DNA from: an uncultured Clostridia bacterium
GTDB lineage: Bacteria; Bacillota; Clostridia; Christensenellales; Borkfalkiaceae
NCBI GenBank assembly: GCA_947627955.1
Contig: CANQXZ010000012.1
Location: forward strand, 1-38,439
Direction of reading: 5' to 3'
Length of the DNA stretch: 38,439 bases
Shown: piece after piece, positions 2,614 through 15,841 of the stretch
How positions within the stretch are numbered: position 1 is the first letter of the stretch
Layout of the letters: each line of letters begins with the position of its first letter
The notes under the pieces: model-generated
The model's database searches: none
The model's input: only the letters and a program-made list of their open reading frames with translations
Told to the model about the DNA's origin: nothing
Translations under genes and position numbers: made by a program

Positions 2614-2642
2614 TTGAATTTTATATGCCGCTGTGATATAAT
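2614..2642 (+). promoter_or_regulatory. Promoter of pcrA with leaderless geometry
   Basis: TTGAAT (2614-2619), a 17-base spacer and a perfect TATAAT (2637-2642) preceded by TGA form an extended -10 promoter. Only six bases (AAAGGC) separate the -10 box from the pcrA ATG at 2649, so the predicted first transcribed base is at or next to the start codon. This would make the mRNA leaderless. Confidence 0.8.
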
Positions 2643-2648
2643 AAAGGC

Positions 2649-4880
2649 ATGGATGCCATGCTTTCACAACTCAACGAAGAACAGATAAAACCCGTCCTCG
2701 ACACCGAGGGCGCCGTTTTAGTGCTCGCGGGGGCGGGCAGCGGCAAGACCCGCGTGCTCACGAGCCGCATAGCGCACATTTTAAAAGAGGGCAAAGCCAC
2801 CCTCTCCCAGATACTCGCAATAACGTTCACCAACAAAGCCGCAAACGAGATGAAAGAGCGCATTTTCGGCGCGATAGGCGAGGGCGACGGAAAGTGGATA
2901 TGCACTATCCACTCCATGTGCGTGAAGATACTGCGTGAATTTGCCGACCGCGCGGGGCTCAAGAGCAATTTTTCCATATACTCCGACGCCGAGCGCAACA
3001 ACGTGATAAAGCGGGTGTTCAAGGACCTCGGTTTCAACAACGAAGAGCTGCTGAAAGCCGCAAAATACCACATAGGCAACGCCAAGATGCTCGGGCTCGA
3101 CCCCGACCAATACGGCAGAAAGTTCAGATACGAGCGCGGCATGGACGATATCGTCGTGGCGTACGAAAAGTACAACTTATATTTAAAGGAGAACAACGCG
3201 CTCGACTTCGACGACCTGCTTTTGGAGACTCTCCGCCTTCTGAGGCGGGACGGCGAAACGCTGTCCTATCTTTCGGACAAGTTCCGCTATATCCACATAG
3301 ACGAGTTTCAGGACATAAACTCCGTGCAGTACAACATAATCAAGCTCCTCGCCTCGGCGCACGGCAACATCTTCGCCGTGGGCGACGACGACCAGTCCAT
3401 CTACGGCTGGCGTGGGGCGGAAATAGGCAACATACTTAGCTTCGACTCCGATTTCCCGGGCGCAAAGGTGTATAAGCTGGAGAGGAACTACCGCTCCACG
3501 GGCAATATCTTAAAGCTCGCCAACGCGATAATAAAGAACAACAGGTCCCGCCGCGGCAAGGTGCTGTGGACGGACGTGGGGGAGGGAGTTCCCCCCGAAT
3601 ACTATAATGCGGAAGAGGAGACGGGCGAGGCGCTGTACGCCGCGCGCAGGATAGCCGACGGCGTGCGTGCGGGCGGCAGATATTCGGACTACGCCGTGCT
3701 CATGCGCATAAACGCCCTCACCCGCCCTTACGAGCAGGAATTCACCAAATACGGCATACCGTACAAGGTATTCGGCGGCTTCAAGTTCTTCGAGAGGAAG
3801 GAGATAAAGGACATACTCGCCTATCTGCGCCTCATCTCTAATCCGTTCGACAGCGAGGCGGCGGAAAGGATAATAAACGTCCCCCGCCGCGGTATCGGCG
3901 GCAAGACGCTCGAAGCGATGTATTACTACGCCGCAAGTTACGGCTTTTCCCTCTTCGACGCGGCGGTAGACGCCGAAAAATTGCCCATAACAAAGGGCGC
4001 AAAGCAGGCGCTTACGGACTTCGCCGCCTTGATAAAGGGGCTGATAATCGGTTCCGTGCAGTCCCCCGTCGCCCAGCTCGTGCGCGACGTGATAACCCTC
4101 GCCGATCTGCGCTCCGCTTACGACGACGGCACAGCCGAGGGCGACGGCAAGCTCGCCAACCTCGACGAATACGTCGCCTCGGTGGACGACTTCTGCCGCC
4201 TCAACCCCGACGCCACTCTCGACGAATACCTCAATCAGGTAACTCTCTCGTCCGATACGGACGAGATGGACGACGGCGACTACGTCACGCTCGCCACGAT
4301 CCACGCCGTCAAGGGGCTGGAATTCCCCGTCGTCTTTTTATGCGGGCTTGAGGACGGCATAATGCCCTCTTCCCGCGCGGAAGAGGAGGGGGATGGCTTA
4401 GAGGAGGAGAGGCGGCTCATGTACGTCGCCATCACCCGCGCCGAAAAGATGCTCTACCTCACCCGCTCCAAGTCCCGCTATCTCTACGGGCGGCGTTCCC
4501 TCACCCAGCCCTCGCGGTTCATAGGCGAACTCGCCCCCGTGCTCGGGATAAATAGCGCGGGCTCCCGCCCGCAGGCGGAGAGGTTCGCAGGCTACCGCGA
4601 TACGGCTATGCACAGGCGCGCGCTCTACTCCGAGGAGGATAGCTACGGCGCCGCGCCGGAAAGCTCTTCGGCTTTCAGGGCGTTTTACGCCGCTCCAAAA
4701 AAGACCGACGGGGGCGGCGCGGGCAAGTACAGCGTGGGAATGCGGGTGAAGCACCCGAAATTCGGCGTCGGCATGGTAATAGCCCTCAAAAATAACGGCA
4801 ATACAGTAAACGTGGCTTTCGACGGTCAGGGGATAAAGGAACTCTCCGCCTCGATAGCCCCCCTCGAAATAATAAAATGA
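2649..4880 (+). CDS. pcrA: ATP-dependent 3'-5' DNA helicase PcrA/UvrD
   Basis: PcrA is the essential superfamily 1A helicase of Gram-positive bacteria, acting in excision repair, plasmid rolling-circle replication and clearing of RecA or RNA polymerase from DNA. All helicase motifs are present: Walker A GAGSGKT at residues 28-34, motif II DEFQD near 219, motif III VGDDDQSIYGWRGA, motif IV LERNYRSTGNIL, motif V TIHAVKGLEFPVVFL and motif VI RRLMYVAITRA. The C-terminus (about 690-743) carries the Tudor-like fold GMRVKHPKFGVGMV that contacts RNA polymerase in PcrA. At 743 residues it has normal length. The ATG at 2649 is six bases after a -10 box; the alternative Met at 2658 (MLSQLNEEQ) aligns equally well with relatives. 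ligA follows 15 bases downstream, the usual pcrA-ligA pair. Confidence 0.97.
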   Translation: MDAMLSQLNEEQIKPVLDTEGAVLVLAGAGSGKTRVLTSRIAHILKEGKATLSQILAITFTNKAANEMKERIFGAIGEGDGKWICTIHSMCVKILREFADRAGLKSNFSIYSDAERNNVIKRVFKDLGFNNEELLKAAKYHIGNAKMLGLDPDQYGRKFRYERGMDDIVVAYEKYNLYLKENNALDFDDLLLETLRLLRRDGETLSYLSDKFRYIHIDEFQDINSVQYNIIKLLASAHGNIFAVGDDDQSIYGWRGAEIGNILSFDSDFPGAKVYKLERNYRSTGNILKLANAIIKNNRSRRGKVLWTDVGEGVPPEYYNAEEETGEALYAARRIADGVRAGGRYSDYAVLMRINALTRPYEQEFTKYGIPYKVFGGFKFFERKEIKDILAYLRLISNPFDSEAAERIINVPRRGIGGKTLEAMYYYAASYGFSLFDAAVDAEKLPITKGAKQALTDFAALIKGLIIGSVQSPVAQLVRDVITLADLRSAYDDGTAEGDGKLANLDEYVASVDDFCRLNPDATLDEYLNQVTLSSDTDEMDDGDYVTLATIHAVKGLEFPVVFLCGLEDGIMPSSRAEEEGDGLEEERRLMYVAITRAEKMLYLTRSKSRYLYGRRSLTQPSRFIGELAPVLGINSAGSRPQAERFAGYRDTAMHRRALYSEEDSYGAAPESSSAFRAFYAAPKKTDGGGAGKYSVGMRVKHPKFGVGMVIALKNNGNTVNVAFDGQGIKELSASIAPLEIIK

Positions 4881-4895
4881 CGCGAGGTGTTTGAC

Positions 4896-14298: not shown

Positions 14299-14315
14299 AA
14301 TAAGGGGCGGTAAAG

Positions 14316-15806
14316 TCATTTTTCACCCTTTTCACGGCTCTTTTCGCTATCCTCGGCAGCCGCGGCTTCGGAGATGGCGGCAGGCGCGGCAGCGGGCGCG
14401 GGCGCGCGGCGGGATATCCTCTTTTTTATCGCGAGGAAGGCGTAGTACGCGCCGTTGAATATGTAAAACAGCCCCACGTACACGAGGTACAGCAATATGA
14501 GGTACAGCCCGTTCATAGTGCACTTCCATATCTTTACGGGGAGCACGTTGGGCACGTCGATAAGGTCGCCTATGGGGTTCTTCTGCGTGAACGCGTAGTT
14601 GGGATACAGCCATTCGGTCTCGGCGGGGAGCATGCTGCCGGGCACGTATTCCCGCAAGGTGTAGCCCCCGTACGAGAAGCTCTGCGAGGCGGATGTGACT
14701 ATCCCGCTCGCCACGGCGGCAGCCACTATCACGAGGCAGTAGTATATGAGGGGAACTATGGCGTCCTTAGGGCGGAATTTATAGTGCCCGAGACATGTGG
14801 GCATCACCGAGAGCATGAACAGTATGCAGTGGGTAAGGGAGAAATACAGTATCGAATAGCCGCAGAATATCCCGTAATTGGAGATGGCGTCCCCGAAGTA
14901 CACGAACACGGTTATCGCCCCCGCCGCATGCACGAAAAAGGAGAGCGCATACAGCGTTTTGCGCTTTAAAAACACCGAGAGGCAGGCGACGTACACCCCT
15001 ATGTTGCATATGAAGAGGGGGATGCAGGCGAACACCGTTGTGTAAACGTTGTAGCCGTCGCCCATCACCACGGAATCCTTGCTGTGGTATTGCAGGAGCA
15101 GCGTCACGGCGAGCGCGCCGAGATATTGGTCCTGCGTGCGGCGGTCCTTGTTTTTCAGAAAGCGGTAACAGCCCACCGTCGCCCCTATAAGAAGGCATAT
15201 CATAAGAAGGTGCCACACCGAAAAGCTCTTGAACAGCAGGAAGTGCCCCGCGAGGTATTCGTCGGAGCGGTTGTCGAAGAGGTTCTCGTTGTAAAAGTTT
15301 TCGAAGATATTCAGCGGCATGGAGGCGGCTATCGCGGCGGGCAGGAACCTGAAAGAGGCGAGCCGCACGCCGAAGCCGTCGCGGACGAAGATCGTCGCCG
15401 CCGCGCCGAGCATGAATATGCTCTCGGCAAAGAAGAGCGCGACGTGCGCGCCGGCGGGAATGAACTCGTTGACGTGCGCGTACACCCTGTCCGCGGGGGA
15501 GGCGTCGGCTGTCAGCATGGTTATCCCGAAGAACTCGCGGCAGGTGCACGCCGAGAGGACTATAAAGGGCGGGAGCAGGTATTTGGCTATGTCCGCGCAG
15601 CTCCGCTTTTTGAAGAACGCCGCCATGGCAAGGAGAACGATCCCCGCCTTTTTTATCCATTGGCTGATTATGAACGCGGGGTCGTATGTATCGAATTTGT
15701 CAAATATGTAGTAGTCGGAGACCGTGAAGGTGAGCACGAACGATATGCCGAGCATTATCGCCGTAAACGCCGAAAGAAGGCGGTCGAGCCCTTTGTTTGT
15801 CTGCAT
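14316..15806 (-). CDS. Polytopic membrane protein, possibly YwaF/TMEM164-like
   Basis: The 496-residue protein has about twelve hydrophobic segments starting at residue 10 (LSAFTAIMLGISFVLTF). It ends in an alanine-rich, charged cytoplasmic tail of about 40 residues (APAPAAAPAAISEAAAAED). The second half (VFACIPLFICNIGVYVACLS, then YFSLTHCILFMLSV) resembles the YwaF/TMEM164 pattern of conserved membrane Cys, Gly and His residues. The first half looks like an older, diverged copy, which would make it a duplicated form. I am not certain of the family. Relatives are often annotated only as integral membrane proteins. The Met at 15806 is chosen because it follows a perfect promoter by six bases; the frame extends to 15911 but through the promoter. 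Function unknown. Confidence 0.75.
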   Translation of the reverse strand: MQTNKGLDRLLSAFTAIMLGISFVLTFTVSDYYIFDKFDTYDPAFIISQWIKKAGIVLLAMAAFFKKRSCADIAKYLLPPFIVLSACTCREFFGITMLTADASPADRVYAHVNEFIPAGAHVALFFAESIFMLGAAATIFVRDGFGVRLASFRFLPAAIAASMPLNIFENFYNENLFDNRSDEYLAGHFLLFKSFSVWHLLMICLLIGATVGCYRFLKNKDRRTQDQYLGALAVTLLLQYHSKDSVVMGDGYNVYTTVFACIPLFICNIGVYVACLSVFLKRKTLYALSFFVHAAGAITVFVYFGDAISNYGIFCGYSILYFSLTHCILFMLSVMPTCLGHYKFRPKDAIVPLIYYCLVIVAAAVASGIVTSASQSFSYGGYTLREYVPGSMLPAETEWLYPNYAFTQKNPIGDLIDVPNVLPVKIWKCTMNGLYLILLYLVYVGLFYIFNGAYYAFLAIKKRISRRAPAPAAAPAAISEAAAAEDSEKSREKGEK

Positions 15807-15812
15807 ATCTCC

Positions 15813-15841
15813 ATTATAGGATATGCGGCGGCAACTGTCAA
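15813..15841 (-). promoter_or_regulatory. Perfect consensus promoter with leaderless geometry
   Basis: On the minus strand TTGACA (complement of 15836-15841), 17 bases and TATAAT (complement of 15813-15818) match the sigma-A consensus at all 12 positions. The ATG at 15806 is six bases downstream (GGAGAT). It is the strongest example of the leaderless arrangement in this window. Confidence 0.88.

Follow-up and report, generated by a model that had tools for sequence, protein, structure and literature searches.

Four genes, carried on both strands of a 38,439-nucleotide stretch of DNA from an uncultured Clostridia bacterium (contig CANQXZ010000012.1 of assembly GCA_947627955.1; Borkfalkiaceae, Christensenellales), appear to form part of a real minority class of leaderless or nearly leaderless genes, with predicted leaders of 0 to about 3 nucleotides (nt). 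We put the probability of this reading at roughly 0.87. The stretch, hereafter the window, spans positions 1-38439 of contig C12 of the host genome (G000; 1.65 Mb in 74 contigs). The genes are pcrA, rdgB, trmL and a gene for a membrane protein. In each, the -10 box of a promoter ends six bases before the ATG, an arrangement called gap 6 below. The original prediction had already read these genes as leaderless, and the reading is now backed by an excess of boxes at gap 6, enrichment in -35 boxes, scarcity of Shine-Dalgarno cores, a pyrimidine at position -1, seven pinned start codons and conservation upstream of pcrA. In the sampled part of the host genome the class accounts for about 3-4% of the called genes.

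Boxes were located in the sequence and with the help of a promoter scan. The promoter of pcrA reads TTGAAT-17-TATAAT-AAAGGC-ATG (ATG 2649, plus strand), with the -35 at 2614..2619 and the -10, which has a TGn ahead of it, at 2637..2642. The gene (2649..4880) encodes a UvrD/PcrA helicase, whose start is pinned by a conserved N-terminus, position 1 of TIGR01073 falling on residue 4. A terminator-like hairpin followed by a T-run (2569..2598, plus strand; 8 pairs, 7 of them G-C, with a TTTTTT tail) lies between the upstream gene and this promoter, which suggests that pcrA begins its own transcription unit. The three other genes are on the minus strand. For rdgB (10226..10795, non-canonical purine nucleoside triphosphate pyrophosphatase, TIGR00042 position 1 at residue 5), the promoter is TTTACT-17-TATAAT-AGGTCT-ATG (ATG 10795), with boxes at 10825..10830 and 10802..10807. 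For trmL (10838..11329, tRNA 2'-O-methyltransferase, TIGR00185 position 1 at residue 1), it is TTGCAT-17-TACAAT-ATAGAT-ATG (ATG 11329), with a -35-like box at 11359..11364 and the -10 at 11336..11341. Finally, the membrane protein gene (14316..15806), of the TMEM164 family (PF14808), is preceded by TTGACA-17-TATAAT-GGAGAT-ATG (ATG 15806), whose boxes at 15836..15841 and 15813..15818 together match the consensus at 12 of 12 positions. The shared geometry that had been claimed for the four genes, a spacer of 17 and a gap of 6, was found in every case.

A genome-wide excess of -10 boxes at gap 6 had been set beforehand as the test on which the original prediction should stand or fall; half of the genome was examined in this way, and it does show the excess. 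The 820 kb sampled (624 called genes in total) consisted of sample 1 (388 kb plus the window, 426 kb in all, 339 called genes and 527 candidate in-frame ATGs) and of an independent sample 2 (394 kb, 285 called genes, 438 candidate in-frame ATGs). Genes were called with a simple home-made program based on codon usage. Boxes were TANNNT hexamers differing from TATAAT by one letter at most, searched at gaps 0-30 before in-frame ATGs near gene starts, and a -35 was accepted with at least 4 of 6 consensus letters at a spacer of 16-18. In sample 1, which contains the window that prompted the test and owes it 4 of its 15 matches, gap 6 was occupied before 15 of 527 ATGs, whereas each of the nearby gaps (3-5 and 7-12) had 1 to 5 matches, 2.3 on average (Poisson tail 3×10−8). 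In sample 2, it was occupied before 9 of 438 ATGs, compared to a mean of 3.0 at nearby gaps (Poisson tail 0.004). Counted by genes, this makes 15 of 339 and 9 of 285, hence 24 of 624 for the two samples. The window is rich in the class, with 4 of its 28 called genes versus 20 of 596 in the rest of the samples.

Without the -35 filter, gaps 0, 1 and 17-20 were also raised in sample 1, with 7-10 matches each. With it, 13 matches were left at gap 6 and at most 4 at every other gap from 0 to 30; in sample 2, 6 were left at gap 6, the next highest count being 4, at gaps 7 and 30. No peak at gap 6 was seen in the host samples for out-of-frame ATGs, nor for in-frame CTG, ACG or AAG codons. In a first run, 14 of the 18 TANNNT hexamers found at gap 6 agreed with TATAAT at five or more of the six positions.

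The sequences around these boxes carry further signs of transcription starting on the ATG or within about three bases of it. A -35 accompanied 19 of the 24 gap-6 matches, versus 120 of the 941 other in-frame ATGs, and 12 of these 19 had a TG at the extended -10 position. A GGAG-type core was present at some candidate start in a single one of the 24 gap-6 genes, versus 293 of the 600 other genes. Most sigma-70 transcription starts are preceded by a pyrimidine, so that if +1 falls on the A of the ATG, base -1 is expected to be usually C or T. This was the case for all 24 gap-6 matches, versus 151 of 252 ATGs led by a Shine-Dalgarno sequence (Fisher 1×10−5). The count was extended to other genomes, where it holds for the matches listed. 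In the family of the window, C or T was found in 83 of 88 cases at gap 6 (8 of 23 genomes) and in 21 of 40 at gap 12 (13 genomes); in another family of the order, f4, it was found in 39 of 62 at gap 6. Genomes reached through their pcrA loci gave 138 of 150 (10 of 14 genomes), with 12 of 12 in Borkfalkia, 19 of 19 in Gallimonas and 10 of 11 in Scatosoma, the lowest values being 9 of 12 (G587) and 13 of 16 (G583).

The start codon itself was pinned by a conserved N-terminus in seven of the 24 proteins, which leaves no room for a Shine-Dalgarno leader between the -10 box and the start. The profile alignments begin at residue 1 (profile position 1) for both TrmL and SerRS, at residue 4 (position 1) for PcrA, 5 (1) for RdgB, 7 (2) for TsaE, 3 (2) for RuvX and 4 (2) for Nth. 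A Pfam match was obtained for 17 of the 24 proteins. Among the annotated genes of the class, many act in DNA repair or in RNA modification and translation (pcrA, rdgB, nth, addB, ruvX, trmL, and also tsaE, queH, gidB, lepA and serS), an observation made from the annotation only.

An ordinary leader, as had been predicted, is present in another gene of the window, glnN. Its promoter, TTGACT-17-TATAAT (33740..33768, plus strand), is separated by 66 bases from the ATG at 33835, and an AAGGAG lies within this leader. We considered whether glnN might be leaderless as well, from a GTG at 33775 (TATAAT-N6-GTG). The ATG with its AAGGAG is the better candidate, and the profile of glutamine synthetase III starts to align only at residue 25 of the GTG form. 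The claim that two initiation modes coexist in this genome is in line with the 293 leadered candidates counted above.

Conservation was followed gene by gene. In a collection of named genomes, the best 80 relatives of the window's PcrA come mostly from metagenome-assembled genomes (MAGs) of uncultured Clostridia, and include Candidatus Borkfalkia, Gallimonas and Scatosoma; in the NCBI taxonomy, Borkfalkia belongs to Christensenellales and Scatosoma to Clostridia incertae sedis. In a tree of 81 PcrA rows, with SH-aLRT (an approximate likelihood ratio test) supports obtained by a quick method, the window falls in a clade of 30 rows with support 100. A row was scored as having the arrangement when a -10 box matching at least 5 of 6 letters lay at gap 5-9 before an ATG close to the homologous start. 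This was so for 25 of the 30 rows of this clade versus 9 of the 50 other scored rows, and the arrangement required a minimum of 11 changes on the tree versus 19-31 in 200 shuffles. Among 33 relatives, the gap was 6 in nine, 7 in five, 8 in twelve and 9 in seven, so that 6 is not the commonest value. Borkfalkia stercoripullorum and a close MAG (L029 and L027) have a pcrA without the promoter-adjacent arrangement; in both, a GC-rich inverted repeat, read by eye, ends about ten bases before the pcrA ATG.

The other three genes gave a patchier picture. An rdgB gene was recovered from 30 of the 31 family genomes. When matches distant from the homologous start are set aside, 6 of the 30 carry the arrangement with a CTTTAC -35, once at gap 9; these are three genomes of the same genus (the host included) and three others. 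In a sample of the order, gap 6 was seen in 3 of 30 rdgB loci and 4 of 30 trmL loci, so that conservation of these two promoters across the order, which we had considered, was mostly not found. Of 31 family genomes, only 3 gave a match to the membrane protein; these three belong to the genus of the window and have TTGACA-17-TATAAT ahead of the gene, at gaps of 6, 9 and 9. The gap of exactly six announced for the class therefore stands for the four window genes but not for the lineage, where orthologues of pcrA and of the membrane protein show 6-9. From pcrA being clade-wide and the other genes patchy, the leaderless mode looks old in this lineage, with single genes gaining and losing it.

To survey whole genomes, the pattern TTGA-N18..20-TANAAT-N6-ATG was counted, the same pattern with N12 serving as control. 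Over 297 genomes of the order, 3184 matches were obtained with N6 and 1122 with N12, a 2.8 fold excess which varies from 0.2 to 7.3 by family. The ratio is 4-7 in the family of the window (f1) and in f3, f6, f16, f24 and f32, intermediate in f28 (3.0), f19 (2.3), f11 and f17 (both 1.7), and 0.5-1.2 in f4, f13, f15, f21, f23, f31 and f33. Outside the order, 277 genomes of Clostridia yielded 2276 matches with N6 and 1998 with N12. A trait of the whole class was rejected on this ratio of only 1.14, though 31 of the 277 genomes pass a loose cut (10 or more matches, and no fewer than twice those of the control). Two families outside the order, f61 and f48, reach 1.75-1.80, and single genomes stand out, such as G452 with 16 versus 4 and G382 with 11 versus 3; these may be further leaderless users.

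The full pipeline was also applied to 400 kb of each of two genomes of the order picked by their pattern count, the highest (G272, f32) and a low one (G284, f4, whose GC content of 0.544 is similar to that of the host). Gap 6 was occupied in 9 of 256 genes of G272, 6 of them with a -35, and in none of the 349 genes of G284. Shine-Dalgarno cores were found in 245 of 349 called genes of G284, versus 154 of 339 and 140 of 285 in the two host samples and 107 of 256 in G272. The leaderless-using genomes thus have such cores in 42-49% of their called genes, versus 70% in the f4 control, a difference exceeding what the leaderless genes by themselves explain.

The arrangement is best explained by an ordinary promoter of the housekeeping sigma factor, made of a -35, a 17 bp spacer, often a TGn, and TATAAT, placed directly ahead of the gene. 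Given this closeness, RNA polymerase would start on the A of the ATG or at most about three bases from it, as the sequence signs described above suggest. The mRNA would then lack a Shine-Dalgarno leader, and 70S ribosomes, or 30S-initiator-tRNA, would presumably load on the 5'-terminal AUG. It might instead be that the promoters are real and translation begins at a downstream internal start behind a Shine-Dalgarno leader, the ATG at +1 being unused. In-frame internal starts do exist (Met4 of pcrA), the profile begins well inside QueH, GidB, BrkB and MntP, and in a single gene of the 24 a candidate start does come with a GGAG-type core. We consider this improbable, as alignments begin 0-6 residues from the ATG in TrmL, SerRS, PcrA, RdgB, Nth, RuvX and TsaE, 23 of the 24 genes have no core at any candidate start tested, and in-frame CTG, ACG and AAG give no peak at gap 6. 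About equally improbable, in our estimate, is that the box near the ATG is incidental or secondary, the main transcripts coming with a leader from upstream promoters or by read-through. Read-through into rdgB is conceivable, since this gene follows trmL at a distance of about 43 bp on the same strand, and many orthologues have Shine-Dalgarno leaders instead. Against this, the fixed distance, the -35 and the pyrimidine at -1 occur together, the arrangement recurs across a clade, and a terminator-like hairpin precedes the pcrA promoter. As for chance or composition, AT-rich hexamers could pile up before start codons in any genome; TANNNT alone is indeed frequent at the majority of gaps, with raised counts at gaps 0, 1 and 17-20 before the -35 filter. 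The peak is nevertheless missing from the nearby-gap, gap-12, out-of-frame, other-codon and other-genome controls, and unless these have a hidden bias in common, this last explanation is very improbable.

Several observations weigh against a leaderless class all the same. Taken alone, sample 2 is modest (0.004, and 6 versus 4 at gap 7 once filtered for the -35), and the gene calls are home-made. Five of the 24 gap-6 matches lack a -35 with 4 of 6 letters. Within the window, the -35 of trmL is weak (3 of 6), and the promoter scan, which finds the other three promoters, misses this one; the GGAG two bases ahead of the ATG of the membrane protein is badly spaced, yet it is not nothing. Starts are left unpinned in QueH, GidB, BrkB and MntP, where the profile begins at residues 22 (position 1), 16 (3), 17 (2) and 40 (8), respectively, and 7 of the 24 proteins have no Pfam match. 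G272, which has the top pattern count of the order, is no richer than the host under the full pipeline. Per-gene conservation is patchy (rdgB 6 of 30 in the family; trmL 4 of 30 and rdgB 3 of 30 in the order), the trmL of a genome of the same genus (G014) lacks the arrangement, and gaps in orthologues range from 6 to 9 instead of being fixed at 6.

Unexpectedly, the uneven spread of the leaderless class over the order tends to follow the state of ribosomal protein S1. Of 101 genomes of the order searched with the rpsA profile TIGR00717, 93 gave a match, none of them above the curated cut-off; an S1 homologue is present. Scores form two groups along family lines, 50 matches lying at 127-246 bits and 43 at 280-338 bits, with the exception in the high group of one partial match at 230 bits (G070, f21). 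The 33 families were split by S1 score after both tables had been seen. The 16 low-S1 families (191 genomes) have 2703 matches at gap 6 and 661 at gap 12, a 4.09 fold excess (family ratios 1.22-7.3), whereas the 17 high-S1 families (106 genomes) have 481 and 461, or 1.04 fold (0.2-2.0). Some families overlap: f9 (1.22) and f20 (1.75), of one genome each, on the low-S1 side, and f11 (1.73), f17 (1.65) and f7 and f25 (2.0, one genome each) on the high-S1 side. A Mann-Whitney test on families, which are not independent, gave 2×10−6. Within the low-S1 group, the score does not track the leaderless ratio, f16 having a low S1 and a ratio of 7.1, and f32 the highest S1 and a ratio of 7.3.

All ten S1 proteins scanned are IspH-S1 fusions. 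That of the host (G000:C1:91151-92092; L251:1183-3282) is one of the 93 profile matches, the others lying in 92 further genomes of the order. Pfam S1 domains numbered 2, 4, 2, 3 and 3 in five proteins of the low group and 4 in each of five proteins of the high group. Twelve low-group and 8 high-group proteins were aligned, with domain limits set by the analyst. Mean identities within the high group, within the low group and between groups were 63, 36 and 29% for domain 1, 62, 46 and 33% for domain 2, 68, 57 and 44% for domain 3, 69, 53 and 46% for domain 4, and 45, 34 and 34% for the IspH half. Domain 1 has thus diverged most, and the IspH half is somewhat affected too; scores of this half are 204-296 bits in five low-group proteins and 233-301 bits in five high-group ones. 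A mere overall divergence of the low-S1 families was considered and rejected on TrmL, which scores alike in the two groups (means of 193.3 and 189.8 bits, 10 loci each), in a control biased by the fact that the 30 loci fetched were the best matches to the window's TrmL.

In E. coli, according to PMC3296737, S1 is dispensable for leaderless mRNAs, its displacement from the ribosome stops bulk translation while leaderless mRNA continues to be translated, and its N-terminal domain (domain 1) docks on S2. The link seen here is a correlation between sequences: S1, whose role on the ribosome is putative, is fused to IspH, and most leaderless-rich families have diverged domains 1-2. The two traits overlap closely but imperfectly; the correlation may reflect a single branch of the tree, on which it could be a coincidence. 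Tentatively, and with more doubt than belief, one can propose that a branch of the order moved part of its translation to 5'-terminal AUGs because its IspH-S1 had lost or remodelled the N-terminal domains that dock on the ribosome, domain 1 above all. Leaderless promoters would have accumulated as S1-independent ones, and S1 erosion and leaderless expansion would be one linked event.

Leaderless genes as such are not new. Zheng et al. 2011 (PMC3160421) report them in 56 of the 209 Firmicutes genomes surveyed, with a concentration among Lactobacillales and Mycoplasma. Like the TA-led genes of that survey, the present ones have a -10-like box some 12 bp ahead of the start codon, and several low-GC genomes there show TATAAT with a TG peak; a fixed-distance -10 excess, scarce Shine-Dalgarno sequences and true starts, here in seven proteins, are also found. 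The available text of the survey names no Clostridia, and a -35 at spacer 17 is usual here. In Deinococcus radiodurans, about one third of the genes are leaderless with TANNNT, on experimental evidence (PMC12340547). The -10 also lies a few bases before the open reading frame in Deinococcus-Thermus, where leaderless mRNA was shown by experiment; here, by contrast, only 3-4% of called genes are concerned, mostly with a near-consensus TATAAT. The Deinococcus type, a degenerate TANNNT with little -35, does not describe boxes that are near TATAAT in 14 of 18 cases and have a -35 in 19 of 24.

Leaderless genes of this kind had been called little described in Clostridia, but leaderless transcripts are on record there. 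RNA mapping recorded 212 leaderless transcripts in Clostridium acetobutylicum, and about 2-3% of the transcripts of three solventogenic strains have leaders under 6 nt, according to PMC4533764 and PMC9045289, which deal with C. acetobutylicum and relatives; 15 leaderless genes are on record, also by RNA mapping, in C. difficile. As in C. acetobutylicum and relatives (PMC4533764, PMC9045289), a small share of the genes of a Clostridia member would be leaderless here; unlike in that RNA-mapped work, our class was read from sequence, and its excess in the sampled rest of the class Clostridia is weak on average (1.14). For the present lineage, no report of leaderless initiation in Christensenella or Borkfalkia was found in the open-licence literature. 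As far as the literature was searched, the lineage and the uneven spread are new.

These results would place leaderless initiation in a large, mostly uncultured lineage, in which families of the same order without the excess are available for comparison. Gene-start annotation in these genomes is affected, because start callers tuned to Shine-Dalgarno sites may misplace leaderless starts. Responses to drugs may differ as well, inhibitors of leadered but not leaderless initiation being mentioned in PMC9581028; kasugamycin is reported to spare leaderless mRNA (PMC4929434). Finally, the co-occurring diverged S1 makes an old question testable in this order, namely whether the condition of S1 governs the use of leaderless mRNAs.

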